The notes under the pieces: model-generated
Told to the model about the DNA's origin: nothing
Databases searched by the model: none
Seen by the model: the letters and a program-made list of their open reading frames with translations, nothing else
Shown: one piece after another, positions 5,057 to 23,196 of the stretch
Layout: each line of letters opens with the position of its first letter
Position numbering within the stretch: position 1 is the first letter of the stretch
Program-made: the position numbers and the translations under genes
Assembly: GCA_000310025.1 (NCBI GenBank)
Contig: FN649742.1
Coordinates: 3,364,750-3,388,457, forward strand
Reading direction: 5' to 3'
DNA length: 23,708 bases
DNA from: Ectocarpus siliculosus
Taxonomy: Eukaryota > Sar > Phaeophyceae > Ectocarpales > Ectocarpaceae

Positions 5057-6105
5057 TTGGACATGTCCACTGCGTACGGTTCATCGACAGCCTACTGCGC
5101 TAAGGCCGATGGAACTCGAGACGGTGATAACAGTCACTCGCCGCGCGGTGAAGCGAGTATGACCGATTGCGTTGAAAGAAATACGCGTCGAATTCCCGTG
5201 GTTTGCGATTCGCGGAGTACCAAAGCTGAGCGGCCCTCAACCGCGACCACGGAGGTGCTGACAACACCGTATTCGGAGGACGCTCCGATTGCGCCCCTCG
5301 TTGAACAAACAACGAAAAACTCGCCACCCTCGTCAAGGGAGGTCCGTCATGTCTCCAACGTGATGGATTCAAGCGAAAGCCCTACAGACAATACACCTCC
5401 TCCGGGTTGCGCTGTTGGTAGAGTAGAGGACTCGGGGCAACAGAAATCCCCCTCCTCCACTATAGCTGGTATTCGTATCTACCCTCCTCCTCCGACCGAT
5501 GCCAAGTGGTCACCACCCGCGTTTGATCCGAGAAAGGAGTACTGTACGCCTGATATGGTGCTACTCTGGCAAGCCCCGTCGGCTTTCTCGCAATGGACGC
5601 CTTCCATCTGTACTGTGGATGGTGTGGAATACTCTTGTGGAGGAAATTCTTCGCGGCTGCTAAGGCTCGTCTATTTGACGACCATGATGCTTGCGGTGGA
5701 TTATGCGTGTTTCCGATCCTATGAAACATTAGCGTTACGGACGCCAAGTTAAAGGGTTTGACGAAGCAGGTTGGGAGCGCGAGCGTGAAGACGTGGTTCG
5801 TGTCGTCTCCTACTAGAATTTTTCGCAAAATCCCGCTGTGCGACAACATCTTTTGGGCACCGGCGACAAGCTGCTTGTCGAAGCTAAGCCCATACGGTGC
5901 CATATGGGGCATTGAACATCGCGGAGATGACCCTGCTGCAATCCAACCCTCTTTATGGCGACGCTCCAATCTGCTTGGCATAAGCCTGCAGATTGTTCGA
6001 GACCTCCTCCGAGAGCACGCGCCGACACCAACACTTCCACCACAAGTTTCGTCCGAAGCAAAGCTCAGGAATACAATAGGAATGTTTGTTCGTCGAAGCA
6101 GATAG
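5057..6105 (+). pseudogene. NADAR (YbiA-like) domain gene, frame-broken
   Basis: The first open frame (5057-5752) gives about 168 residues of Ser/Thr/Pro-rich, probably disordered sequence. A NADAR domain then starts with LLWQAPSAFSQW and a VDGVEYSC strand. The domain continues in other frames: KFFAAAKARLFDD (from 5644), VKGFDEAGWERERED (from 5748), an in-frame TAG at 5814-5816, FSQNPAV and LLGTGDKLLVEA (from about 5820), then SPYGAIWGIEHRGDDPAAI (from about 5887) and LLGISLQIVRD. All are in canonical order. NADAR proteins act on ADP-ribose or riboflavin-intermediate N-glycosidic bonds. At least three frameshifts and one stop make this a pseudogene, unless they are read errors. The last codons and stop (from 6079) belong to the neighbouring element's terminal repeat, so the native C-terminus is lost. 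Confidence 0.8.
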
Positions 6106-6340
6106 AATAAACTGGTGTTTATTTTGTAACAGTCGAATTAGAATTTGGCTTCATTTTCTACCGGAAACCCAGGGTCACGGTGTTTGGAATTATTAGTCTA
6201 TAGTTGGGGGTGTCATTCCGTGATCGAGTCCACGCAGGGGCTGTAGCAAAGTCGGGTAACGTGTGACAGCTACAGAGCGCGTGAAGCAACGGAAGGACAG
6301 CAGCAGCCGCCTAACGCAGTAGCGGCGGCAGTTTAGAAAA
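6079..6340 (+). repeat. Split direct repeat A1
   Basis: Matches 11795-12058 with only two differences noticed, both single-T length changes in T runs. Starts GGAATGTTTGTTCGTCG, ends GTTTAGAAAA. Confidence 0.85.
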
Positions 6341-6396
6341 GGGCGGGACGGGACACGGCGCAAGCATTGGGGAAGTGACCAGCACGCGACTCTCCA

Positions 6397-6403
6397 TATA
6401 AAG
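6397..6403 (+). promoter_or_regulatory. TATA-like box
   Basis: TATAAAG within CCATATAAAGG, just downstream of repeat A1. It is a plausible promoter for the element's transcript, with a start expected around 6425-6435. The following 180 bases to the ATG at 6581 would be leader. Based on motif and position only. Confidence 0.4.
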
Positions 6404-6580
6404 GTGTGTACTCGTGTCCAACATCCATCGTGTCGGCCGTGTTCCTATTCGCGTCCCGCTACTCTTGTGACCTCACCGCTGCGTGCATTTAGCACGAGGG
6501 GGGAGGGTGCAGTAAGATAAGCGGCGGCAAGCCACCGCAGTCTCGCTCGCCGCGCCGCTCAGATAGGTCCCTTCCCAAAC

Positions 6581-6817
6581 ATGGGATGCGGTTCATCCCA
6601 ACCGAGACGTACTCTCGCTGAAGAAAAAAAATGCGGTTCGTCCCAACCGAGACGTACTCTCTCTGAAGAAAAAATTCAACGGCAAAAAGAAAGAGCGGGG
6701 CCTGTTGTATGGTCGCACGCTGACTTGTCGCGGTTGATAGCAGCCATTGTACTGCACGGGGTGGAGGAACCCTGCGGCATCGGACATAACCAATCGACCC
6801 GCGGCAGTAGGGCATGA
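6581..6817 (+). CDS. Small ORF with MGC acylation-like start and 15-aa tandem repeat
   Basis: 78 codons. It opens MGCGSS, which fits the consensus for N-terminal myristoylation (Gly2) plus palmitoylation (Cys3), although eukaryotic context would have to confirm expression. Two 15-residue repeats follow (CGSSQPRRTL(A/S)EEK), encoded by the 45-bp tandem duplication at 6586-6675. The rest (to residue 78) contains a weakly hydrophobic LIAAIVLHGV segment. It is the first ATG downstream of the TATA-like box. No family is recognised and it could be fortuitous. Confidence 0.3.
   Translation: MGCGSSQPRRTLAEEKKCGSSQPRRTLSEEKIQRQKERAGPVVWSHADLSRLIAAIVLHGVEEPCGIGHNQSTRGSRA
6586..6675 (+). repeat. 45-bp tandem duplication
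   Basis: Copies 6586-6630 and 6631-6675 begin ATGCGGTTC and differ at a few positions. The 45-bp unit preserves the reading frame. Confidence 0.85.
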
Positions 6818-7492
6818 TGCTGTCACGAGTATGCACATGAGGCAGGTGCCTTGTTTTCTGTTTCCCCCGGCTTACTAGGGACTACTTGCCGGTACAATCT
6901 TGTCTGTGCCGCGCACAGAGGGGCATATAGCTGAAGGAATCGACGATAATATGCCCACTCACGTAAGCAATCGTCTCACGGATGGTATTGACAAGTCCCC
7001 ACTGATGGTATCGACAAGTCCCATGGCATACAAAGCGGCCGCATACGTAATCGGAAAGTGCATTCAACAGCATTCACGGGAACGGATAAAAGCAAAAACA
7101 CATGCATGCGAGAGACAGACTCAAAGAAAAAGACTGAAAAACAAAGAAGACGAGAAAAAAAAACGAGACAGCGAACTACGTGCTGTATGCATAAGGAAAA
7201 AGAAGATGAGAAAAAAATAGGGGGGGGAGGTGAAAGTGACACGCTAGGTTCGAACTCGCGAGGAACGTCAGGTAGCGGTCCATGTGAGTGCATCACGGTC
7301 TCGAGGGGCATCACGTCAAATTCATTGCCGCTGTGACACAAACCTTCTATAAGAATACGTCACGTCCATCGACGATTAAGCGACCAAAAACGCCCGGACA
7401 GCAATTGATGCATGCCAAAAACTCGTCAACCTGCCGTAGGATTGTCTATGCGGAAGTGATCTCAATGAAAAAAAAAAAAACAAGGACACGCA
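6818..7492. other. Non-coding element interior, purine-rich tract and short direct repeat
   Basis: No credible gene. A 20-bp sequence (GATGGTATtGACAAGTCCC type) occurs at 6981-7000 and 7004-7023. From about 7076 to 7229 the plus strand is strongly purine-rich (AAAG and GAAAA strings ending in G8), which resembles an extended polypurine tract. Short ORFs here are Lys/Arg-rich artefacts of that bias. Confidence 0.45.
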
Positions 7493-7493
7493 C

Positions 7494-8909
7494 CAGCACG
7501 GGACGCGCCAATAGTGGAAGCACTCGTCCGTGCTGTTGGCGAGTGGAAGTTAACCGATCTCAACGCAACGAAACACGAAGTCATACATGTATCAGCACGG
7601 GATGCGCCAATGAGTGGAAGCACCCGCGCTCTTGGCGAGTAGAGTTAACCGAATTCAACGCAGCGGTAGAAAATACCACAAATCATGCATCAGTACGGGA
7701 CGCGCCAATGAGTGGAAGCACCCGTGCTGCATATGTGATGTCAGCCTCAGCACGGGACGCGCCAATGAGTGGAAGCACTCGTGCTGTTGGTGAGTAGAGT
7801 AAACCGATCTCAAAAAGAAAGAACAAAACGCCGTACATGTATCAGCACGGGACGCGCCAATGAGTGGAAGCACCCGCGCTGTTGGCGAGTAGAGTTAACC
7901 GAATTCAACGCAGCGGTAGGAAATACCACAAATCATGCATCAGTACGGGACGCGCCAATGAGTGGAAGCACCCGTGCTGCATATGTGTTGTCAGCCTCAG
8001 CACGGGACGCGCCAACGAGTGGAAGCACTCGTGCTGCTGGCGAGTAGAGTTAACCGATCTCAAAAAAGAAAGAACAAAACGCCGTACACGTATCAGCACG
8101 GGACGCGCCAATGAGTGGAAGCACCCGCGCTGTTGGCGAGTAGAGTTAACCGAATTCAACGCAGCGGTAGGAAATACCACAAATCATGCATCAGTACGGG
8201 ACGCGCCAATGAGTGGAAGCACCCGTGCTGCATATGTGTTGTCAGCCTCAGCACGGGACGCGCCAACGAGTGGAAGCACTCGTGCTGTTGGCGAGTAGAG
8301 TTAACCGACCTCAAAAAGAAAGAACAAAACGCCGTACACGTATCAGCACGGGACGCGCCAATGAGTGGACGCACCCGTGCTGTTGGCGAGTAGAGTTAAC
8401 CGAATTCAACGCATCGAAAACGAAGTCGTACACGTATCAGTACGGGACGCGCCAATGAGTGGAAGCACCCGTGCTGCATATGTGTTGTCAGTTTCAGCAA
8501 GGGACGCGCCAATGAGTGCTGTTGGCGAGTAGAGTTAACCGATCTCAAAAAGAAAGAACAAAAACGCCGTACACGTATCAGTACGGGACGCGCCAATGAG
8601 TGGACGCACATGTGCTGTTGGCGAGTAGAATTAACCGATCTCCACGCATCGAAAACGAAGTCATACACGTATCAGTACGGGACGCGCCAATGAGTGGAAG
8701 CACCCGTGCTCATATGTGTTGTCAGTTTCAGCAAGGGACGCGCCAATGAGTGGAAGCACCCGCGCTGCGTACAAGTATCAGTACGGGTCGCGCCAATGAG
8801 TGGAAGCACCCGTGATGCATATGTGTTGTCAGTTTCAGCGAGGGACGCGCCAATGAGTGGAAGCACCCGCGCTGTTGGCAAGGGGGTTTCCCCGTTTCCA
8901 AGGCTTGGC

Positions 8910-8952
<43 letters not shown>

Positions 8953-9000
8953 ACGTATCAGCACGGGACGCGCCAATGAGTGGAAGCACCCGTGCCGATG
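7494..9000 (+). repeat. Tandem hairpin array with 250-bp higher-order period
   Basis: About 19 copies of a ~39-bp core that starts CAGCACGGGACGCGCCAA, continues TGAGTGGAAGCA and ends CCCGTGCTG. The first and last nine bases are complementary, so each core can form a hairpin. Copies start near 7494, 7593, 7691, 7748, 7843, 7941, 7998, 8094, 8192, 8249, 8344, 8438, 8496, 8579, 8673, 8729, 8779, 8836 and 8959. Three types of spacer alternate, giving a higher-order unit of 250 bp (for example 7591, 7841, 8092, 8342) that decays after 8440. Spacers carry GTTAACCGA(A/T)(T/C)TCAACGC or an A-rich AAAGAAAGAAC stretch. ORFs through it (ARDAPMSGSTRA repeats) are by-products of the unit. Confidence 0.9.
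8911..8951 (+). repeat. A41 homopolymer inside the array
   Basis: Forty-one uninterrupted A residues, preceded by a degraded spacer (GGGGGTTTCCCCGTTTCC). The normal array spacer has only about four A at this place. It may be a sequencing or assembly artefact at a read end. Confidence 0.8.
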
Positions 9001-9261
9001 GCGAACCGGGGTTCACCGAATCCAAGAAAATATATATATAAAAAAAAAAAAAGAGAAACCATCGCTAGTGTCCCAAAGAGAGAAATATTCGGGATTGGTC
9101 GACGTCCGGTGACCGTAGCGTCAGCAGCAATAATCACTCCATTCAATCCACAGGCGTCGAGAACGAACTAACGCGAGCTCGCGATATAACAACGCGTCGT
9201 TCTGGGCCCGACGAAAACCCACGTCAGATAGTTTCGCCCGAAGATAGGATTTGTAGACCAT
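9001..9261. other. Array edge and leader, no gene seen
   Basis: The last array spacer is distorted (run-rich, ATATATAT then A12 at about 9040-9052). From 9060 the sequence becomes balanced. No domain can be read before the gag-like region. Confidence 0.4.
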
Positions 9262-10266
9262 TCTAACTGCAGATCCAGGCGCGCGATCGACTACGCCCAC
9301 GATGAAAAGGAAAAGAAGTGTTCCCGCAACGCCGCCCTGACGCTCGCCCGCCGCCTGCCGCCGGTCCGCTGCTTATACGACTCCAACCGCGACCAGATGC
9401 CGACACGGGCCTCCACGCGGAGCGGCAGGGCAGCGGCTGGGCAAGCAGGGCGAGGTCGGGCGGCGACACCTTCGACACCACGCACGAGGAGGTCTACCGC
9501 GCGATCGGTGGCGAGCTCGACGGCTCGCCCCTCGACGCGCAGCGGATCACGTACTCCCGCGAGGCGTCGAGCGGTATCCTCCTCGCGAGCGCCAGGGACA
9601 GGCACCCGCGGCGACCCCCCCGCTGATGAGACTGAGCTCGCTTCTCTCCGCGGGCTGGTGGACGGCCTGAGGGAGGAGCTGCAGCGGAAGCGCGATGAGG
9701 CTGCCGGCGATCGCCAGCAGCTTCAAGCAACGATCGACGACCTGATCGCCACCCAAGCAGCAGGACCTGGCCTTCCGGGGGGGGGTGCAACTGGTGGGCA
9801 CAACCGCCCCACCATCGGCCTCTCGGGCCCCCGCTACACCCAGCGCCGAGGGGGCTAAGGCTACGGCAAAGGATAGAGCGCGGATGTGGGGGGACCTCCG
9901 CCGGGTAAAAGCGTGGCTCATCCTGGGGCGGCCTCCGGCAGTTTCAAAACTGTCGCAGATGGAGTGGCAATCCTTGCTTCGCAAAGGCGTCCTGGTGACA
10001 GAGAAAGTGGCGGCATCGCTCGACACGCTCGTGGTTACTGCTTCGCCTTCAACTCGTCGTCCGGTTGCCATGATCGTAACTGCCCACACATCCACACCCA
10101 GAACCCTTCCCACGCTAGGCGCGGAGCGTCCGAAACTCCGGCAACCGGCGCGCGCGGCGTTGGCCACGGCAACGGGGGAGGGCGCGGAGGAGAGGCGCGC
10201 GCCGCTGGCGAGGGCGGCGCGAGACCCAAGGCCGCTGGCTTCTTCACCCACGGGAAAGACAAATAG
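9262..10266 (+). pseudogene. Gag-like protein with coiled coil and CCCH zinc finger, frame-shifted
   Basis: Protein-like sequence shifts frame several times. Frame 1 (9262-9396) includes a RRLPPVRCLYDSNRDQ stretch. Frame 3 (about 9398-9610) includes FDTTHEEVYRAIGGELDG. Frame 1 (to 9776) holds a heptad coiled coil (LRGLVDGLREELQRKRDEAA). Frame 2 (9786 to about 9990) includes MWGDLRRVKAWLILG. Frame 1 then returns with CFAFNSSSGCHDRNCPHIH, a C-x8-C-x4-C-x3-H finger close to the CCCH pattern of nucleic-acid-binding gag proteins in DIRS/Ngaro-type elements. One break falls on the G9 run at 9777-9785, a likely indel site. The frame ends at TAG 10264-10266, directly before the recombinase. The gag-like role is inferred from the finger, coiled coil and position. 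Confidence 0.55.
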
Positions 10267-11514
10267 GGGTGCGGGCTCTCCCGCGTAGCGGGGGGGGCTA
10301 CCTCGGATGGCAGCGCACCTGCGTCTAAATCGAACGGCAGCACGCCGGTCTACACGAGGTTGGCTCCAGGGCTATCAGCAGGTTCAGGACCTGGGACAGG
10401 CAGGACGGGACTTTGTTACCGACGTCTTGGCATGCAGCTCGTCGAGCACTCAGTTGCGTCTTCGTCTAGAAGGACTTACACGTCAGGCTTCAACTCTTGG
10501 TGCACGTTTCACAGGCTGACGGAGAAGCCCAAGTTCCTAGGGCAACGTGCCGGGGACCTTCATGTGTGGGAGTTGATAGACTTCGTAGCCTGGTGTTTCG
10601 AGTCTGAGGGTAATCTAGCGAGTACAATATCCGGAAAACTCACGGCTGTACAACATTTTCATAGGCTGGAAGCTTCTGTCGAGCTAGACTTGTCGTCTCC
10701 GATGTTGAAATGTGCGCTAAGGGGGATTGCGAGGAACCACGTGGCTGTGGGGACGGTACGCCGTGTGCGCCTGCCTGTGTCTTGGCGTATGCTGCTGGAC
10801 GGGCAAAGCGCAAGCCAGAACTGGGGGGAAGGGGGCAGAGTGATGTGGCTGTGTCTGTGCTTGTCCTATCTCTTTATCACACGGTCTGATGAGGTGTTCG
10901 CGAATGATGCGGGCAGGGTGCATGAGGCACACTGTCTTACGAGGGCGGACGTAGCATTGTTTGCTGGCGAGACGCAATTAGTCTTTAGTCACTATCGTAG
11001 AGCAGACCGTGTCGAAATGAGGTTTAGAGGGCACAAGGCCGATCAAGAGCAGAAAGGAAACATACGGGTTCGTACGCGAGACGAAGTCACCGGACCGCAG
11101 TCAGGTGTGAGAGCACGCGGCGGCGCGGTGGCTCTTGTGGTGGAGCTGTTATCGTGTCATGCGACGTTCCCTGACTCCGCACCGTTGGCTTCGTACCGTA
11201 GTGGAAGAGCAGTGAGAGTAGTGAGGTATACTGCTGCCCTCCGTGCACTCAGAGAAGTGGTAGCGAAGTCGGGGCGTAACCCCCAGGAGTACGCGTTGCA
11301 CTCGTTGCGAATTGGAGGCTCGACGGCTCTTGCATCGGGCGGAGACATCGCAGAACGAGTGATTCAGAGAGAAGGGAAGTGGAGGTCGGATGCATACAAG
11401 CCGTACGCGTGAAACAATGTAGAGGATTCGCGGCGAGTGTCACGGAAACTTACAGACGGCAGTAGGATCGTACCGAGACAGCCGGGGGAGGGGACCGTCT
11501 GGGGGAACGGATAG
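10267..11514 (+). pseudogene. Tyrosine recombinase (YR) with premature TGA
   Basis: Frame 1 is open from the TAG at 10264-10266 to TGA at 11410-11412, with the first ATG at 10432. An N-terminal core-binding helix domain (SSSRRTYTSGFNSWCTF onward) is followed by the catalytic domain. Visible residues are Arg in LFITRSDEV, H-x-x-R in LHSLRIGGSTA, and GKWRSDAYKPY, where the last or preceding Tyr is the nucleophile. This matches the R...HxxR...W...Y order of DIRS/Ngaro/Crypton recombinases, which insert element circles by strand exchange. After the TGA the same frame reads NNVEDSRRVSRKL, a typical end of such domains, to TAG at 11512-11514. The TGA therefore probably replaced an Arg codon. The frame is otherwise intact, so readthrough or a read error would give a full protein. 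Confidence 0.85.
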
Positions 11515-11555
11515 TTGACTTATTCGGTAGTCGTCCAGAAACTGACCTCGATGTG

Positions 11556-11793
11556 GGTGTTGTAGAATGGGGTGTACCATTTGAGGACTTGGTCAGTTTT
11601 GGGACTCCTGCGTTTGCAGTCGTAGTCCCCCGGCTAGTATTTGTGGGGAGAGAGATGGATTTGTAAGAGTTGATGCCGGCCTTTGCAGCTAACGCGGCCG
11701 GAGAGACGATGAGCGTTTCGTGCGTCTCTCTCCCCAACACGTAGCCTAGAAACCGAAGAAATAATGAAGCAATTCGAAAGAAAACAAAATAAA
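11556..11793 (+). repeat. Split direct repeat B1
   Basis: Matches 12127-12364 with one substitution noticed (G at 11571, T at 12142). Starts GGTGTTGTAGAATGG, ends AACAAAATAAA. Confidence 0.9.
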
Positions 11794-11794
11794 A

Positions 11795-12058
11795 GGAATG
11801 TTTGTTCGTCGAAGCAGATAGAATAAACTGGTGTTTATTTTGTAACAGTTCGAATTAGAATTTGGCTTCATTTTTCTACCGGAAACCCAGGGTCACGGTG
11901 TTTGGAATTATTAGTCTATAGTTGGGGGTGTCATTCCGTGATCGAGTCCACGCAGGGGCTGTAGCAAAGTCGGGTAACGTGTGACAGCTACAGAGCGCGT
12001 GAAGCAACGGAAGGACAGCAGCAGCCGCCTAACGCAGTAGCGGCGGCAGTTTAGAAAA
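11795..12058 (+). repeat. Split direct repeat A2
   Basis: Second copy of A1, immediately following B1. Two one-base T insertions distinguish it from A1. Confidence 0.9.
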
Positions 12059-12126
12059 TCCCGCCCTCCCATCCCTTTTCTTTCGAAGGTGGGGGCATAA
12101 GTTCGGGAATATTCGGTATCTAGTCA

Positions 12127-12364
12127 GGTGTTGTAGAATGGTGTGTACCATTTGAGGACTTGGTCAGTTTTGGGACTCCTGCGTTTGCAGTCGTAGTCCC
12201 CCGGCTAGTATTTGTGGGGAGAGAGATGGATTTGTAAGAGTTGATGCCGGCCTTTGCAGCTAACGCGGCCGGAGAGACGATGAGCGTTTCGTGCGTCTCT
12301 CTCCCCAACACGTAGCCTAGAAACCGAAGAAATAATGAAGCAATTCGAAAGAAAACAAAATAAA
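12127..12364 (+). repeat. Split direct repeat B2 (element right end)
   Basis: Second copy of B1. It is separated from A2 by 68 bp that match neither repeat, apart from a short ATTCGGTA shared with the B1 upstream flank. Confidence 0.9.
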
Positions 12365-12376
12365 CCATGAGGTTAA

Positions 12377-12987
12377 GAGCGTATTTCGACGGCTGCCGCC
12401 GAGGAGGCCGCCCCGTCGTCAGGTTACCGCATCAAATCAGCGCATCTTCCACGTGATCACAGCGCTGAAGTTCTCGTGGTTACGTCCGCTGAGAATAATG
12501 AGGAAGATCGTGTATACCGTTGTTCGCTGAGCATGGTCCTTGCCTCGTAGGTGGTGTTGTTACAGTTGACGACGCTTCATTTACGACTCGAGTCAACATT
12601 CACGGTGGACCGGCCAAATCACAATATGGTTGTGCTGCTCTGCTAGATTCAGGATCACCGGCAACGTTCATCAACAGCAACGCTGTTGGTACCCTCAAAG
12701 CCATGGGAGCAATCTCAGAGGCTTGCATCTCGCACGGTAACACACGTTCTTGGGGAGGTTTTGGTACATCCGAGTCTCTTCAGACGTCCGACACAGTCCG
12801 TCTGAGTGTACAATTTTTCCACGGTGATACGCCTTCGGCTTCTCTTGCCGTTTGGGCACACGTCGTCCCTGCAAACACCATGCAGTTTCCCATCCTCTTG
12901 GGACGCGATAGTTTCATGCGATTTAACACTCGCGCGTACCGTATGTTGCCTCCGCGGCCACTGGACAATCAATCGCGTTTTTTGTGA
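12377..12987 (+). pseudogene. Ty3/gypsy gag tail and aspartic protease
   Basis: A frame from 12377 (ERISTAAAEEAAP...) shifts near 12545 into the open frame 12520-12987. That frame contains LLDSGSPATFIN, the retropepsin active site (Asp of DSG at 12646-12648), and later FPILLGRDSFMRF, which corresponds to the conserved LGRD/LG-x-D C-terminal motif of retroviral-type proteases. The frame breaks at the T6 run near 12980, and the protein continues in frame 2. The protease matures the polyprotein as a dimer in the particle. The catalytic residue is intact, but the copy is broken. Confidence 0.75.
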
Positions 12988-13690
12988 ATATACGCTTGCC
13001 CACCAGGACGATTCTGGTGCGGTCGCGTATGTGCCCGATTTCACAGCCCCGGCGGACCAATTCCAGCTCCGTTATGCAGGGCCGACGGGTACCTCATTGT
13101 CAGACGACCACCAAATGATTGAGGTCGACTTGGTGCGTTCCAACGGTACACCGGCTCTGACCGGTCAATACCTTGTCGACGTGTTACCTGAGGTTTCGTC
13201 GAACGAAGAAATCCTTGTCTCCGACGGACGTCAGTTTGTGCCGCTCGCGGGTGCCGCAGAACTTGAGCCAGGAGACTTGCTCGGTACTGCTGCCGCCCCG
13301 CTGATGCGCGTGCCGGTAGATCATTTAGAACAACAGTTCAGCGACGAAGCTGATACTTCATGTTCTGTGCCTGGACCTATTTTGGGTTCTACCGATGATA
13401 ACGCGGACAGGACCGTCGATCCGCAGGTGCGTTGCTACGACCCCTTCGTGCACCACCTGCGATCCACCGATCCTCCTGTGCCGGACCCAGCGAAATCATC
13501 CCCTGCGGCCCCTGCCTCCGCCCACACTTCGCCCTCGCCGCCACCACAGCATGTGATGGAGTGGTTGAGCGCTGATCAGAGAGTTAGCTTTGAGTCATTG
13601 TGGAATCGCTTGCCGCCTCACCTGAAGTTGGTTAAGTTTGATCTGACACGGTCCTGGTTGGTCACCAGAGGTCATCATAGAACTTGGTGA
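12988..13690 (+). pseudogene. Protease-RT linker region
   Basis: An open frame (with the segment 12806-12987 as shadow) of acidic and Pro/Ser-rich sequence. It ends with a helix-forming stretch (WLSADQRVSFESLWNRLPPH) that usually leads into RT. The frame is lost at 13688-13690, just before the conserved ELxxLLxxFxDVF segment. Confidence 0.55.
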
Positions 13691-14650
13691 TCTTTTGCAT
13701 GACTTCCAAGACGTGTTTTCCCCCATCCTCGACGGATTTGGGGTCCTGTTCCCTGATACCGTTTTAGATCAAATTACCTCCGGATTGTCCCCCTGCGACG
13801 TCCAAATCGTACCGTATGAATCCTTTGGTTGCGAAGCAAGTCGATGCCATTTTGGACCTGTATCTAGCTGCTGTCCTAATTCAGCATTCGACCTCTCCTT
13901 GTTTCAGCCCCATTGTGGGTATACCAAAGACGCCTGGTGGCATACGTATCTAACTACCGAAAGTTGAACCAGCAGCCTTGGTAAACTTCCCATTCCCCGA
14001 GTCGACGCCCTTCTAACAAAACTCAACAGAGGTTTGATTTCCTCGCAGTTCGATTTTACGGGTTCCTTCCACCAGATCACTTTCCACAAGGACACTATCC
14101 CCCTTCGGCCTTTGCGACCCCCACTCGTTTGTTCGAATGGCTGCGCATGCCGATGGGTGCTAGCCAGTCCGCAGTCCAATTGTAAAAGTGACTAACGAAG
14201 TAATCAAAGGCCTAGATGGGGTCGAGGCATACCTCGATGACGTCGTTGTTTTTGATGAAGGCCCGCTGCAGCATGTCCGTAATGTGCTCACGCTCTTCGA
14301 ACGGTTGAGAAAGTACGACCTCAAACTTTCTCCCTCGAAAGCCCCATCGGTACCACCAAGGTGACTACTTAGGGCACACCATATCTTCGAAAGGTGTCCT
14401 CCCCAACGCCCGTAAAGTAGAAGCCCTGGCTGGTATGCCCATGCCTACGAACGTCAAGCAAGTCAGGTCGCTCATGGGTGGTCTGAGCTACTACCGACGT
14501 TTTCTCAGAGACAAGGCCAAGCGTGTGAAGCCCATTACTCACTTGCTCAAAAAAGGTGTTCCCTTCGCTTTCACGAGCGACATGGAAACAACTGTGCGCA
14601 GCCTACTGGCTGAGCTCGCGAAACCGCCCATTCTAGTGTTTCCTGAATGG
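13691..14650 (+). pseudogene. Ty3/gypsy reverse transcriptase, heavily frame-shifted
   Basis: Conserved pieces appear in order. First HDFQDVFSP (13697), then IVGIPKTPGG and NYRKLNQQPW (13915-13980). After a shift come KLPIPRVDALLTKLNRGLIS and FDFTGSFHQI (motif A), then FATPTRLFEWLRMPMGAS (motif B region). TAA follows at 14183-14185, then AYLDDVVVF with the catalytic YLDD at 14230-14241, and LSPSKA. The thumb and connection follow as one frame (14435-14680), with RSLMGGLSYYRRFL. At least four frameshifts and one stop occur, so it cannot make an active enzyme. Confidence 0.8.
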
Positions 14651-14659
14651 GACGCTATC

Positions 14660-15060
14660 GCGGACAGCACACGCCCTTGAAGGTCTTTGCTGTGACGCCA
14701 GCTCCGACGGTCTCGGCGATGCGCTTGAGCAAGAGCAGAAGGACGGCTCGGTACGGCCGATCGTTTTCATCAGCAGAGCTACGCTCGACGCTGAACGTAA
14801 CTGGAATGAACGTAACTGGACCGCTCTCGATCTCGAAGCAGGAGCCGTTGCATGGGCGATCACGCGTATCCGCGAATACCTTCGTGGCACACACTTCCGC
14901 ATCTATTCAGAAAAAAGGCGCTGGAAATTTTGCCGAAAATCAGCGAGCACAACCCACGCGTCCAACGCTGGATTGAGTTCCTTGAGGCATACAGCTACAC
15001 GTTGGAATACCGACGAGGTGCCTCGAACGGCAATGCTGACGTGCTGTCTCGTCTACCGAT
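14660..15060 (+). pseudogene. Ty3/gypsy RNase H domain
   Basis: CCDASSDGLGDALEQEQ (catalytic Asp), RPIVFISRATLDAERNW, LDLEAGAVAWAI (catalytic Glu) and REYLRGTHFRIYS are readable from about 14690 to 14905. A shift at the A6 run near 14912 leads into the ORF starting at 14852, with KALEILPKISEHNPRVQRWI and GASNGNADVLSRL. A 15-bp in-frame duplication (14793-14807 and 14808-14822) repeats ERNWN. The domain degrades the RNA template strand. Confidence 0.8.
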
Positions 15061-16100
15061 TGAGCCTACTGACGCCGACGTCAACGGTAACAGTAGTTTG
15101 ACGTCCCCCGAGGACGTTGGTGTGTATCTGATCCGAGCGACAGGTCACGCACCACCCGGACAAACCACGCCTGGCGTTGGTTGGGGTGGGCTACCCCTTA
15201 CTTCCGATGATATTGCGGATTTTCACAGACACGGGACTCGGATTAACGACCTTGATGCTCCTGACGGAGAATTCGTCGCTCGTGTTTTTCCCAACGTCAC
15301 TGCGCGAGGACCTTTGCGACACCTTGCGGACGCTCGTGCAATGTCTTGTACCGAACACTCCATATTTGCTGTGCCTGAGGTTATCTCCGCTGCAACCCAG
15401 ACTACACAGGATACTGTGCCGGCACTCCGGTCTTCAGCTTATCCTGTTGTGTCTCCGATGAGACCATTGTATAGGGACAGTGCCACGGTTTACGGACCGT
15501 CTGCGCGACCCCACACGGATACAGCTGCATTTGCGCTCCTTATCCACGACACGCAGACCGCCCACGGTAACTCTCGGTTGCCCCCTGTCGTGTCTCCTGC
15601 GCCAGTAACTGTCGACGCCGGCTCCCAGTCTGATCGTTTGGATACCGCCGACTCATTGCCGCCGCCTTCGACCTATCGGTTGCAACCACATCGTCGTGAT
15701 CCTTCGGAACTGATCTCTTATCGTACGCCTCGCCGAACCGCGGCTGTTGCGGGTCAGCCTCAACCCGATGTAAACTACGGTTTCGGTCCTGATTTGTCGA
15801 TCCCCCCACATGTTCCGCGTGCAGCTGCCGCTGCAGGCGCTTCTCGTCGTCAAACACGAGTACCGCCAGCCGCCACCACGCCTGAGCCTGCTGTCGAGCA
15901 TGTCCCAACGGTGCCCATAGCGCCGCTGGAGACGGTTTCCGACGCCCCTTCGGGTCCTCTGTTGGGTTTGTCACAACCGGCTGCTTCAGCTGATACGGCA
16001 ACACGCGCAGTGGATTCCGCGGTCCTCAATCCTGCAGAGTTAGAATTCCGTGAGTCCGTCGAACGCTACACGCGTGCCGATTGGGCGCGGGAACAACAGA
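15061..16100 (+). pseudogene. Long proline-rich linker between RNase H and integrase
   Basis: About 340 residues in one uninterrupted frame (part of the open frame 14852-16345). They are rich in Pro, Ala, Ser, Thr and Arg, with no predicted fold (SLPPPSTYRL, HVPRAAAAAGASRR, PAATTPEPAVEHVP). In most Ty3/gypsy elements the gap between the VLSRL motif and the integrase zinc finger is only tens of residues. It is the longest undamaged stretch of the element. Confidence 0.6.
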
Positions 16101-17066
16101 AAGAGCCGGTGTGTGAAGCCAATATCCGCTACATTCTTCTCAAACGCCCTCAGATTCTACGGGACGAGTTATTTGCCGGAGTGTCATATCACTCCAGGCA
16201 TAGACCATCGTTGGCGGACATTCGAGAGGTTGCAGATAAAGGACGCGTCGTCACTGACGATGGCCTCTGCCTCTTGGTAAGACAGCATACCAAGCCCCCG
16301 GTCTCTTCTGACCGTCCCGGAGGACGAGAGCGGCACGTCTGTTGAATGACAAACCCATCGTATTTACGTGCCCATGTTAATGCGACCTTGGGTCATGCAA
16401 GTTTGTCATGCCAACGCCCTTTGTCACCTTGGTTCCGAACGCACGCTTAGCTTGCTTGAGAGGTGTTACTGGTGGATTGGGATGAATATTGGTACCCGTT
16501 GGTGGATTCGGCGATGTTTGAAATGTCAGGCTCGGAAAACTGCGCGCCAGACTGTTCGCTGGCCGAGTCTCACGATCCCTCTTCTTTCGGCGCCAGGGGT
16601 CGCGATTAGCATCGACTATTTTGGTCCGCTTTCCACAACTCCGCGAGGTTTCTCGAATATCTTGCTAGAGAGCCAATGTATGTACGCAGTAGCTGACCCC
16701 AAGTTCACAGCTGAAGGTACAGCCGACGTCCTTTTCAATAAACACATGCCTGTTTGGGAATGCCCCCTCAGCAATCTTTCTGACAACGGATTGCAGTTTT
16801 GTTCCAAACTTTCGGTTGCCATCCTGAAACTGCTACGCGTCCGAAAAATCACGACGAACCGTATACCATCCTAGTGGCAACGGAGGAGTTGAGCGCGTGA
16901 ACCACATCATGGCCCAGATGCTGGCTATGGTTGTGAATGAACGACAAGATGATTGGGACGTTCATCTCCCTCATGTTGAATTCGCATACAACAACTCCGT
17001 TAGCACTGCCACAGGATTGGCGCCCAATGAGGTTCATATGGCGCGCTTCCCAGGTTTCCACTGACC
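16101..17066 (+). pseudogene. Ty3/gypsy integrase zinc finger and catalytic core
   Basis: The H-H-C-C finger reads VCHANALCHLGSERTL ... YWWIGM ... CLKCQARK (16395-16535). The core carries SIDYFGPL (first Asp, 16614-16616), LSDNGLQF (second Asp, 16782-16784) and, after a frame change near 16865, GGVERVNH (Glu, 16891-16893). The second Asp and Glu are about 35 residues apart, the D,D-35-E signature. EFAYNNSVSTATGLAPNEV follows. Breaks: TGA near 16345, a shift near 16865, and TGA near 17064. Integrase joins element DNA to the chromosome. Confidence 0.85.
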
Positions 17067-21548: not shown

Positions 21549-23196
21549 TTATGTTTTGCATGCCTTAGCGGTTAGACCATTGACCACGCGTCCTCGAGAG
21601 GACGGAGCATTGTTCCCACAGGACCGATCACCGATGGCCAATCGTTCCTTCCTACTTTGCCAAAGGTGGCTCAAAAATGTCTTTCCAAGTCCAGCAATCC
21701 TACCGATATCCCTTCCCGCCTTTTCAAACCACTTCCTACTCCCCAGTACAGCTACCGTCTTCTCCTCTCTATTCCATGCCTCAAACATCTCGCTGTATTT
21801 TCCCAGCTCAGTCATGTACAATTCCCTCTCCTTATTGTACAGACGACATTCCGCGACTACATGAACACGGTCTTCGCATTCGAAGTCGCAATCGCATTTG
21901 AACTTGTCTTCTTCGTCGTCTACCGTCCTATGTCTTCGTCGACGTTCTCGAAGGCCTATGTTCCCGGTCCTGAATTTGATCTTCTTTGTCCCTGCATCCA
22001 TTGGTCCATGCAGGTAGTCCTTGAACCCTATTCCTTCTTTCAACATTCCGTACACTTCTAGACCTTCCTTATCCTCGGTTTCTTTCCTTAGATTATGTTA
22101 TTCTCTTTCGGCAAAAACAACAGATATCTTCTCCTTGAACCCCTGTAGACCCTCCGTTTCCAGCGTTTCATCTTCGTCGTCGATGTCTAACCCCTTCCAT
22201 ACGTCCTCCACAACCTTGACCCATTCCGTGAGTTGTCTACCCCTCTTTTTGTTTGGCCACTTCGCCTCCCATACTATTCTCGGCAACTTCTCCTCTCCCA
22301 TCCCGCACATGCGATACTGCCATGTCAGCTTCCTTGCGTCTCTTCCCGACCGTAGGGATTGGATCCCCAATTCTGCCCTGAGGGCTGCATTACTTGTGCG
22401 CTTGGAGCATCCGAGGATGATTTTCACTGCTTTCATCTGCGCCGCCTCGAGTTCTCTCACTACCTTCTTATTTCCTTCCCATACTTCTCCGGCGTACTCT
22501 AGCGGCGGTACGATTACGCTCTTCAAAACCGTCAATTTGATGCGTGTATCGAGATGCCGGAATGCGAGTATCGGGTGCAGCTTCGCTGCTCGTGCTTTGC
22601 CGTTTTCCGCTACCTTGGACATGTGTGCATTCCACGAGCAGTCTTTTGCGATCTCTACTCCGAGGTACGTGTACTGGTCCACTACTGCAATCTCCCCGAT
22701 CCCCCACGTCCATCTATGTTCTACTGGTTCCTCCCTGACCTCGTTGCATACCATGACGGCACTCTTCTTAACGTTGGCAGAAAATCTCCACTTTTCAGTA
22801 AATTTCTTCGCCGCGTCAATTTGCAGTTGCAGTCCCTCAGGGGTGTCCGACATACCAACAAAATCATCCGCATACAGCATTCCTGACACCGAAGTTTCCG
22901 TGTCCCCTACTTTTACTTCCTTCCGGACTGCCTCTACGACTTCCAACAGATCGTTGATGAACACCTGGAGCAATGTTGGGGACAGCGTGCAACCTTGTGG
23001 GACCCTCTACTCAATGTCGAAGAACTTAGACAGCTCTCCGTCTAGCATGACCGCGCTTTTTGTACGCTCTGTCATCTTCTTCACAGCACTCTCCATATTT
23101 TCCCCTTGATCCCGTACTTGTTCAATTGTTTTCACAGCCTATTTCTCCATACGGTATCGTATGCCTTTTTAACGTCCAGGAAGAAGCAGTACGTCG
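21549..23196 (-). mobile_element. 5'-truncated non-LTR (LINE-type) retrotransposon
   Basis: Reading down the minus strand: FFLDVKKAYDTVW (RT motif A, Asp at 23174-23176), a TGA (23132-23134) and a frameshift. Then comes an in-frame TAG (23007-23009), VPQGCTLSPTLLQVFINDLL (motif B), and GMLYADDFVGMSD (motif C, YADD at 22863-22874). The thumb and a basic helical region follow, with TAA at 22098-22100. The same frame then continues with CDCDFECEDRVHVVAECRLY, the Cys/His knuckle found at the C-terminus of many LINE ORF2 proteins, to a stop at 21549-21551. The endonuclease and RT fingers are missing: sequence stops matching at about 23196, a normal 5' truncation. No poly(A) tail or target-site duplication could be placed. 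Confidence 0.85.
22098..22973 (-). pseudogene. LINE reverse transcriptase palm/thumb, longest open piece
   Basis: 291 codons from an internal ATG that is not the native start. The frame is open further upstream to the TAG at 23007-23009. YADD is intact. Downstream segments include TYLGVEIAKDCSWNAHM (the LGV motif after the palm), RIKLTVLKSVIVPPLEYAGE (a common LINE thumb motif), and a Lys/Arg-rich tail. The closing TAA at 22098 is the only block before the zinc-knuckle segment, which lies in the same frame. The copy is inactive because of truncation. Confidence 0.8.

Follow-up and report, generated by a model that had tools for sequence, protein, structure and literature searches.

The window, a 23,708-nucleotide stretch of Ectocarpus siliculosus DNA, carries between positions 6078 and 12364 an element that is best explained, with a probability of roughly 85%, as a derivative, arisen by internal deletion, of a Ngaro-like tyrosine recombinase (YR) retrotransposon; it lies within an older NADAR-type Ty3/Gypsy Pol. 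The predicted assignment to the Ngaro-like group rests on the repeat layout, on the YR and on the overlap of the reverse transcriptase-RNase H (RT-RNase H) and YR frames, with a YR tree that holds only relatives found here. The element is filed as a deletion derivative and not as an intact member because the RT-RNase H ORF present in its relatives is missing here. All features given below lie on the forward strand.

Split repeats and boundaries of the element

A repeat search of the window revealed two families of two copies each, in the order A1-interior-B1-A2-B2, and listed no third copy of A or B. Repeat A1 (6078..6340) forms the left end of the element and B2 (12127..12364) its right end, while B1 (11556..11793) and A2 (11794..12058) are internal. 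End-to-end alignment of A1 (263 bp) with A2 (265 bp) gave 263 identities and no mismatches; two 1-base indels fall in T runs. B1 and B2 (238 bp each) are identical at 237/238 positions with one mismatch. Over the 501 aligned bases of both pairs, the differences amount to one substitution and two 1-base indels. Chance does not account for repeats this long and this similar. B1 and A2 are contiguous, with zero bases between them, and the internal B1|A2 junction is therefore the sequence obtained by joining the end of B2 to the start of A1. A spacer of 68 bp (12059-12126) separates A2 from B2. The order had been proposed in the sequence-only reading and was borne out by the repeat search and the end-to-end alignment; all four boundaries meet as it stated, except that A starts one base earlier (6078, not 6079). 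The split direct repeat layout A1-[ORFs]-B1A2B2 expected of a Ngaro-like retrotransposon, as described in PMC8547959, is present. Two of the three differences between repeat copies, as well as the breaks in the gag-like frame described below, are 1-base events for which sequencing errors are possible.

Insertion in a Ty3/Gypsy Pol

Judged from domain matches, the element is nested in an older predicted NADAR-type Ty3/Gypsy Pol, between its NADAR domain and its protease-RT-RNase H-integrase part. The NADAR domain is found left of the insertion at 5647..6012 (Pfam PF08719, E 6.7e-5; 23.6 bits for a cut-off of 35.1). The remainder of the interrupted Pol (12502..16871) has Pfam matches to protease-like (E 0.057), RNase H (E 3.5e-18) and integrase zinc (E 1.6e-12) domains, together with an RT match below the cut-off (E 1.9e-4). 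Such an arrangement of NADAR and Gypsy Pol is known from one Gypsy lineage of Ectocarpus described in PMC12477816. When the flanks are joined without the element, frame 2 is open for 117 + 55 codons. The left flank ends with ATACAAT and the right flank starts with CCATGAGG; a target-site duplication is absent. YR elements as a rule insert without one.

Tyrosine recombinase

The YR ORF (10432..11412) starts at the first ATG of an open frame spanning 10267-11412. The sequence-only reading of a YR in the element is confirmed by the conserved R, K, H-x-x-R and Y, presumably the catalytic residues, and by the match of the family profile to Cre, and the predicted ORF is regarded as real. In an alignment of 13 YR sequences R206, K257, H345 and R348 are invariant and Y380 is found in at least 90%; among 42 aligned sequences R and K are invariant and H, R and Y are kept in at least 90%. 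The profile matches Cre over its C-terminal part (E 0.00056) and Pfam detects Phage_integrase in one relative, P0068 (E 2.7e-7). The window YR on its own gave no Pfam and no PDB match; its AlphaFold model has a pLDDT of 87.7 and a pTM of 0.72. Protein P0001 is another record of this YR (94% YR identity, 9 member sequences). The stop of the window YR is the second codon past the tyrosine codon, while P0001 runs 35 residues further.

Residual RT-RNase H tail

The sequence-only reading had found no readable RT. This holds for nearly the whole element, in which neither tblastn nor the RT-RNase H profile detected an RT, the exception being the final 45-46 RT-RNase H codons. This residual C-terminal tail (46 codons and a stop, 10379..10519), delineated by tblastn, profile and a shuffle control, overlaps the start of the YR in a different frame. 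The Ngaro-type profile, built from 15 proteins, matches at 10379-10513 with only its positions 690-734 of 735 (E 4.9e-11), and in tblastn P0103 is 70% identical over 46 aa (E 1.1e-13). Comparison of 55 proteins (P0081-P0135) to the window by tblastn gave 28 matches at E <= 0.01. Of these, 25 fall between 10295 and 10516 in frame 2 and correspond to the C-terminus of RT-RNase H, and the remaining three (P0102, P0111, P0117) align by the YR sequence that they themselves carry. A six-frame Pfam scan of the element also revealed no RT. Pfam is weak on full-length RT-RNase H relatives, where RVT_1 was found in 5/7, always below the curated cut-off, and the family-specific tblastn and profile searches are thus the real test. 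The only family at E <= 0.1 in that scan, DUF4658 (E 0.033), is not a credible match.

The tail shares 28-29 of its 46 codons with the YR ORF, and the homology of some YR relatives starts already at 10417 (P0012, P0018) or 10387 (P0032), which leaves only some 12 codons for the most part free of YR homology; 9/12 of these are identical to P0103. Compared with the best of 1000 shuffles, the 17 codons that precede the first ATG of the YR reach 5.4 bits against 0.3, at the profile positions where the tail belongs, and the 12 codons reach -1.0 against -1.6. Extending the tail by 49 upstream codons gave a score no better than shuffles.

RT-bearing relatives

Locus L001 has an RT-RNase H ORF (1-2409) that overlaps its YR ORF (YR match from 2340), the YR being in the +2 frame relative to the RT as in the window. 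In both, the RT-RNase H frame runs into the YR with no methyltransferase domain between them. L001 lies on a 3.7-kb contig of a Rickettsiales MAG, taken as a eukaryotic contaminant, and is the sole locus obtained from 29 pattern matches in a scan of prokaryote genomes. Scans of viral contigs with the YR and the RT-RNase H alignments (13 pattern matches each) confirmed no locus.

Five of the 136 proteins fetched have matches to RT/RNase H as well as to YR references, and three of these are among the 19 tree rows adjoining the window YR and P0001. Within the YR tree, several branches contain RT-joined YRs, among the nearest and more distant relatives; this is a quick tree whose rows are the relatives found here, and the placements of P0117 and P0111 (less than half of the columns filled) and of P0032 (long branch) are unsure. 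In P0032 a piece of RT is joined straight to the YR. Equal longest contigs (3985, 5514, 1059222 and 4298) suggest that the members of four YR/RT-RNase H pairs probably come each from the same contig.

Interior upstream of the recombinase

The 5' interior (6341..9230) has no recognised genes: no RT-family match was found there by tblastn or profile, no Rfam match and no convincing Pfam match. It contains a minisatellite with a period of ~250 bp (7468-9010). A following region (9397..10263) is tentatively gag-like, its putative identity based on a CCCH-type motif (C-x8-C-x4-C-x3-H) recognised by eye in an interrupted frame, and it has no meaningful Pfam match. When its stops are read through, the sole protein match is P0136, 100% identical over 42% of the query; as this query is low in complexity and 8000 candidates were scored, missing gag relatives mean little. 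P0136 possibly represents this very locus, taken from a different assembly. The bases after A1 and after A2 share an exact complementary 8-mer, a match found likewise in 5/200000 random position pairs. Its candidacy as a priming signal was dropped, being post hoc and with 13% of 2000 shuffles binding as strongly.

Origin of the element

Of the two origins offered by the sequence-only reading, an internally deleted derivative is favoured because the RT-RNase H tail (10379-10516) overlaps the YR with the frame offset also found in L001 and because YR relatives are joined to an RT. The ancestor would have been arranged as A1 - gag - RT-RNase H overlapping YR - B1 A2 B2. A deletion of ~2 kb, lying between the gag-like region and ~10379, would have removed almost all of the RT-RNase H ORF and left a split-repeat template and a YR gene that ends early. 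Ngaro and PAT elements transpose through an RNA copy, a circle with a B|A junction and insertion by the YR. Correspondingly, an RNA with incomplete terminal repeats could have been copied by the RT of an intact relative, its missing ends being restored from the internal B1|A2 block, and a circle with a B|A junction would have been inserted by the YR without target-site duplication. The deletion would then precede the last insertion, with RT supplied in trans. The near-identity of the repeat copies makes such movement in trans plausible.

Deletion after insertion, giving a dead copy, appears as possible as trans-mobilisation. An ordinary decayed copy of the same ancestry, never trans-mobilised in this form, has close to an even chance: its YR ends early relative to P0001, its gag-like frame is interrupted and the element is known from one copy, while the near-identical repeats leave little time for a ~2 kb deletion and the other lesions, without excluding them. 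A non-autonomous family, in which the RT-less form itself would multiply in trans (as considered for SIRE with VIPER in trypanosomes), is a genuine possibility short of even odds. The near-identity of the A and B pairs, the further YR record P0001 (94%) and the match of P0136 to the gag-like part, though possibly from the same locus in another assembly, point to it, as does P0032, whose direct joining of an RT piece to the YR implies that such deletions recur in the group; against it, the element DNA was read for one copy and P0001 is a protein record. More speculatively, and rather unlikely, the window element and P0001 might represent an RT-less split-repeat family that multiplies in trans on Ngaro RT and keeps the four repeats and the YR, with the hairpin-rich minisatellite as a possible RNA packaging or priming signal.

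The other origin, an undescribed RT-less split-repeat lineage moving as DNA in a Crypton-like manner, is not supported and is very improbable. The RT-RNase H tail has the position and frame that L001 would predict, and a small part of it escapes most of the YR homology; RT-joined YRs are found on several branches of the tree, and the near-identity of A1/A2 and B1/B2 fits RT copying, whereas DNA cut-and-paste would not renew identity. These observations outweigh the failure of tblastn and profile (and of Pfam, which agrees but is insensitive) to find an RT in the element, the ability in principle of a YR alone to excise and reinsert a circle, and the fact that most of the tail match falls in the YR overlap. 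The sequence-only reading would have been refuted if 11556-12364 were a small separate LTR-type element, with B serving as its LTR and with no relation to the A copy at 6078. B1 and B2 do flank 333 bp like two LTRs. LTR retrotransposons are defined by TG..CA ends and a target-site duplication, but B starts GGTGTT and ends ATAAA, and GATGTG left of B1 does not duplicate CCATGA right of B2. Moreover, the 333 bp contain a complete A copy abutting B1 and the outer ends 6078 and 12364 are those of one insertion inside the Gypsy Pol, so that this separate element is rejected as scarcely conceivable.

Relation to known systems

Fifteen Ngaro families were already described in Ectocarpus (PMC12477816). 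The element resembles Ngaro-like elements (order DIRS), as far as these are described in the sources cited, by its layout, its RT-RNase H/YR overlap, the lack of target-site duplication and repeat sizes of a similar order (A 236 bp and B 152 bp in Xenopus DIRS-53_XT; PMC9210276). It differs by the absence of all but the last ~46 RT-RNase H codons, by a YR that ends early and by the 250-bp-period minisatellite in its 5' interior. PAT-like elements also combine split direct repeats with a YR but, in the account of PMC4157794, carry a methyltransferase-like domain, for which the overlap of the RNase H end with the YR leaves no room in the window and L001. No Pfam match to such a domain was found in the six frames of the element. 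Cryptons likewise have a YR without RT, but no split repeats and no RT ancestry, unlike the element with its long split repeats, RT-RNase H tail and RT-joined YR relatives.

The apparent RT-less split-repeat element is thus explained as a deletion derivative, and no new transposition mechanism need be assumed. Should the deletion be common to several copies, these would amount to a natural experiment on trans-complementation between split-repeat YR retrotransposons. This bears on SIRE, a truncated form of VIPER in Trypanosoma cruzi, whose mobility (helped by full copies or a remnant) is left open in PMC6681497. Both are truncated relatives of split-repeat YR retrotransposons, but SIRE, as described there, corresponds to the A2-B2 region while the element keeps all four repeats and the YR gene. 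Ngaro elements of Cafeteria described in PMC8547959 have also lost one ORF, the gag-like ORF1, in place of the RT-RNase H lost here.

Split direct repeats of the element

Two families of long direct repeats lie within the window in the order A1 (6078-6340), interior, B1 (11556-11793), A2 (11794-12058) and B2 (12127-12364), as proposed in the sequence-only reading. Global alignment shows them to be near-identical: A1 and A2 agree in 263 of 263 aligned bases with two 1-base indels, and B1 and B2 in 237 of 238. B1 abuts A2 exactly and the outer ends of the element are the start of A and the end of B, so that the internal block carries the junction expected in a circular form of the element. The repeat order is that of Ngaro elements, whose layout is given as A1-[ORFs]-B1A2B2 (PMC8547959, excerpt).

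The 8-mer following A1 (6341-6348, GGGCGGGA) is the exact reverse complement of that following A2 (12059-12066, TCCCGCCC); the duplex strength of their flanks is not unusual when compared to shuffles. Downstream of A1 are found a 45-bp tandem duplication (6586-6674, copies 95% alike) and, at ~50 bp, a TATA-like box recognized by eye (6390-6402, CCATATAAAGG), which would place the transcript start outside A1.

The tyrosine recombinase

The tyrosine recombinase (YR) ORF (10267-11412) has at least 80 relatives at E <= 1e-5 among the 8000 candidates with the most shared words; the one assigned to a named source, P0017, is from Ectocarpus sp. Across 13 aligned sequences four residues never vary (Arg206, Lys257, His345 and Arg348) and Tyr380 almost never does; we take these positions to be the catalytic residues. 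A 42-sequence alignment again shows the Arg and Lys without exception, and the His, Arg and Tyr in at least 90% of sequences. The window protein by itself has no Pfam or PDB match. A profile of the 13 sequences matches the C-terminal part of Cre (E 0.00056), and the relative P0068 matches Pfam Phage_integrase (E 2.7e-7). The AlphaFold model has a mean pLDDT of 87.7 and a pTM of 0.72. The closest relative among the matches listed, P0001, is 94% identical and is aligned by tblastn past the window stop, to 11508. That stop falls two codons past the one for the tyrosine, at a point where P0001 has 35 further residues.

A probable remnant of RT-RNase H

P0017 has an RNase H-type region ahead of its YR. 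A search with this region yielded 56 proteins, 20 of them 643-800 aa long. The D-D pair of the YVDD-type motif is invariant in 15 aligned RT-RNase H proteins, and a weak RVT_1 match is present in five of seven tested. When 55 of the 56 (P0017 left out) were compared with the window by tblastn (E <= 0.01), there were 28 hits, all inside 10295-10917. In three of these (P0102, P0111 and P0117) the aligned part is the protein's own YR; in the other 25 it is the C-terminal end of RT-RNase H, which matches 10295-10516 in a frame other than that of YR. The best of the 25, P0103, aligns over residues 683-728 of 728 and is 70% identical (E 1.1e-13). Searched with a profile of the 15 proteins, the element matches at profile positions 690-734 of 735 (E 4.9e-11); the rest of it, both strands included, gives nothing better than E 2. 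In the same run L001, a relative locus with both genes, scored 1037 bits (positions 20-733), a method check rather than an independent control since L001 was found with this alignment.

Most of this tail falls where YR is also conserved, because the homology of some YR relatives begins at 10417 (P0012, P0018) or 10387 (P0032), ahead of the first YR ATG at 10432. At profile positions 690-706 the 17 codons preceding this ATG reach 5.4 bits, compared with 0.3 for the top-scoring of 1000 shuffles. For the 12 codons that precede 10417 the score at positions 690-700 is -1.0 (highest among 1000 shuffles, -1.6), and nine of these codons are identical to P0103. Addition of 49 further upstream codons gave -4.5, no better than shuffles. 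The tail supports RT ancestry of the element, though its independent part is short.

RT-bearing relatives and ancestry of the element

L001 is a 3704-bp contig (JALZUV010000302.1) with an RT-RNase H ORF open from base 1 to 2409 that overlaps the YR ORF, whose match starts at 2340. YR is in the +2 frame relative to RT both in L001 and in the window (10379 versus 10432). All ORFs are likewise reported to overlap in Xenopus Ngaro-like elements (PMC9210276, excerpt). The record in which this eukaryotic-type Ngaro RT-RNase H and YR occur (L001:1-3704) is labelled as a Rickettsiales MAG, probably through eukaryotic contamination.

For five of the 136 fetched proteins (P0017, P0032, P0102, P0111 and P0117) E is <= 1e-5 against an RT-RNase H reference as well as against the window YR. 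In four further YR/RT-RNase H pairs the longest contigs of the two members are equal in length, which suggests, short of proof, that each pair comes from one contig. In P0032 (444 aa) the first 87 residues match positions 385-469 of the RT-RNase H protein P0084 and YR starts at residue 83. RNase H thus seems to be missing, which would make P0032 another internal deletion within this group, distinct from that of the window element.

A quick tree was built from 84 YR rows, without inferring its root. In it the window and P0001 form a fully supported pair that adjoins 19 rows (SH-aLRT 85, not starred), of which three are RT-joined. At least three label changes are needed to account for the RT-joined rows, about as many as in shuffles, so these rows are scattered; exact places are unsure because P0111 and P0117 fill less than half of the columns and the P0032 branch is long. 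The sequence-only reading had left a choice between an internally deleted derivative and an undescribed RT-less lineage moving as DNA. Loss of RT in the window element is the simpler reading and the tail supports it, which favours the deleted derivative over the DNA-moving lineage.

Ngaro elements are abundant in Ectocarpus, with 15 families and 3893 copies (PMC12477816, excerpt). Truncation is known from SIRE, the truncated form of VIPER (PMC6681497, excerpt), and Ngaro types of Cafeteria lack ORF1 (PMC8547959, excerpt) while the present element lacks RT. Listings of open papers, searched with chosen words for Ngaro or DIRS elements that are non-autonomous or carry internal deletions, showed no description of an RT-less form that keeps all four repeats. 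The element adds an altered example to a kind of object already known.

Timing of the proposed deletion, and the insertion site

Over 501 aligned bases the two repeat pairs together show a single substitution and two 1-base indels; the last round of copying was therefore recent. Under the transposition model for such elements, if the deletion is older than this round, RT would have come from another element; if younger, the element would just be a dead copy. Frames are interrupted in the gag-like region (9397-10263), which is not taken as evidence because 1-base differences may be sequencing errors. Between A1 and this region lies a minisatellite (7468-9010; period ~250 bp, 5.2 copies by TRF) whose core unit is present in 17 copies, each folding into a stem-loop such as AGYACGGG...CCCGTGCT; pairs are kept by G-T exchanges in some units.

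The Ngaro-like insertion splits a NADAR-bearing Ty3/Gypsy Pol (5647-6077 and 12365-16871) whose domains are spread over several frames. The NADAR domain, at 5647-6012 to the left of A1, matches Pfam at E 6.7e-5, short of the curated cut-off. Beyond B2, in the same orientation, lie a weak Ty3-like protease (E 0.057) and an RT whose match stays below cut-off (E 1.9e-4), along with RNase H (E 3.5e-18) and an integrase zinc domain (E 1.6e-12). We infer that one single Pol was interrupted. With the flanks joined (6077 to 12365) one frame is open for 117 codons before the junction and 55 after, against 9 when the same frame is continued into A1. Taken alone, the 55-codon run does not carry much weight; the order of the domains to either side gives stronger support. 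The two flanks of the element carry no target-site duplication.

Elsewhere in the window, the minus strand codes for an RT of another kind, LINE-like by eye (22098-23006; RVT_1 E 2e-13), and for a piece of an ABC-transporter membrane domain (85-891; PF00664, E 4.9e-5, below cut-off) that is perhaps a host exon.
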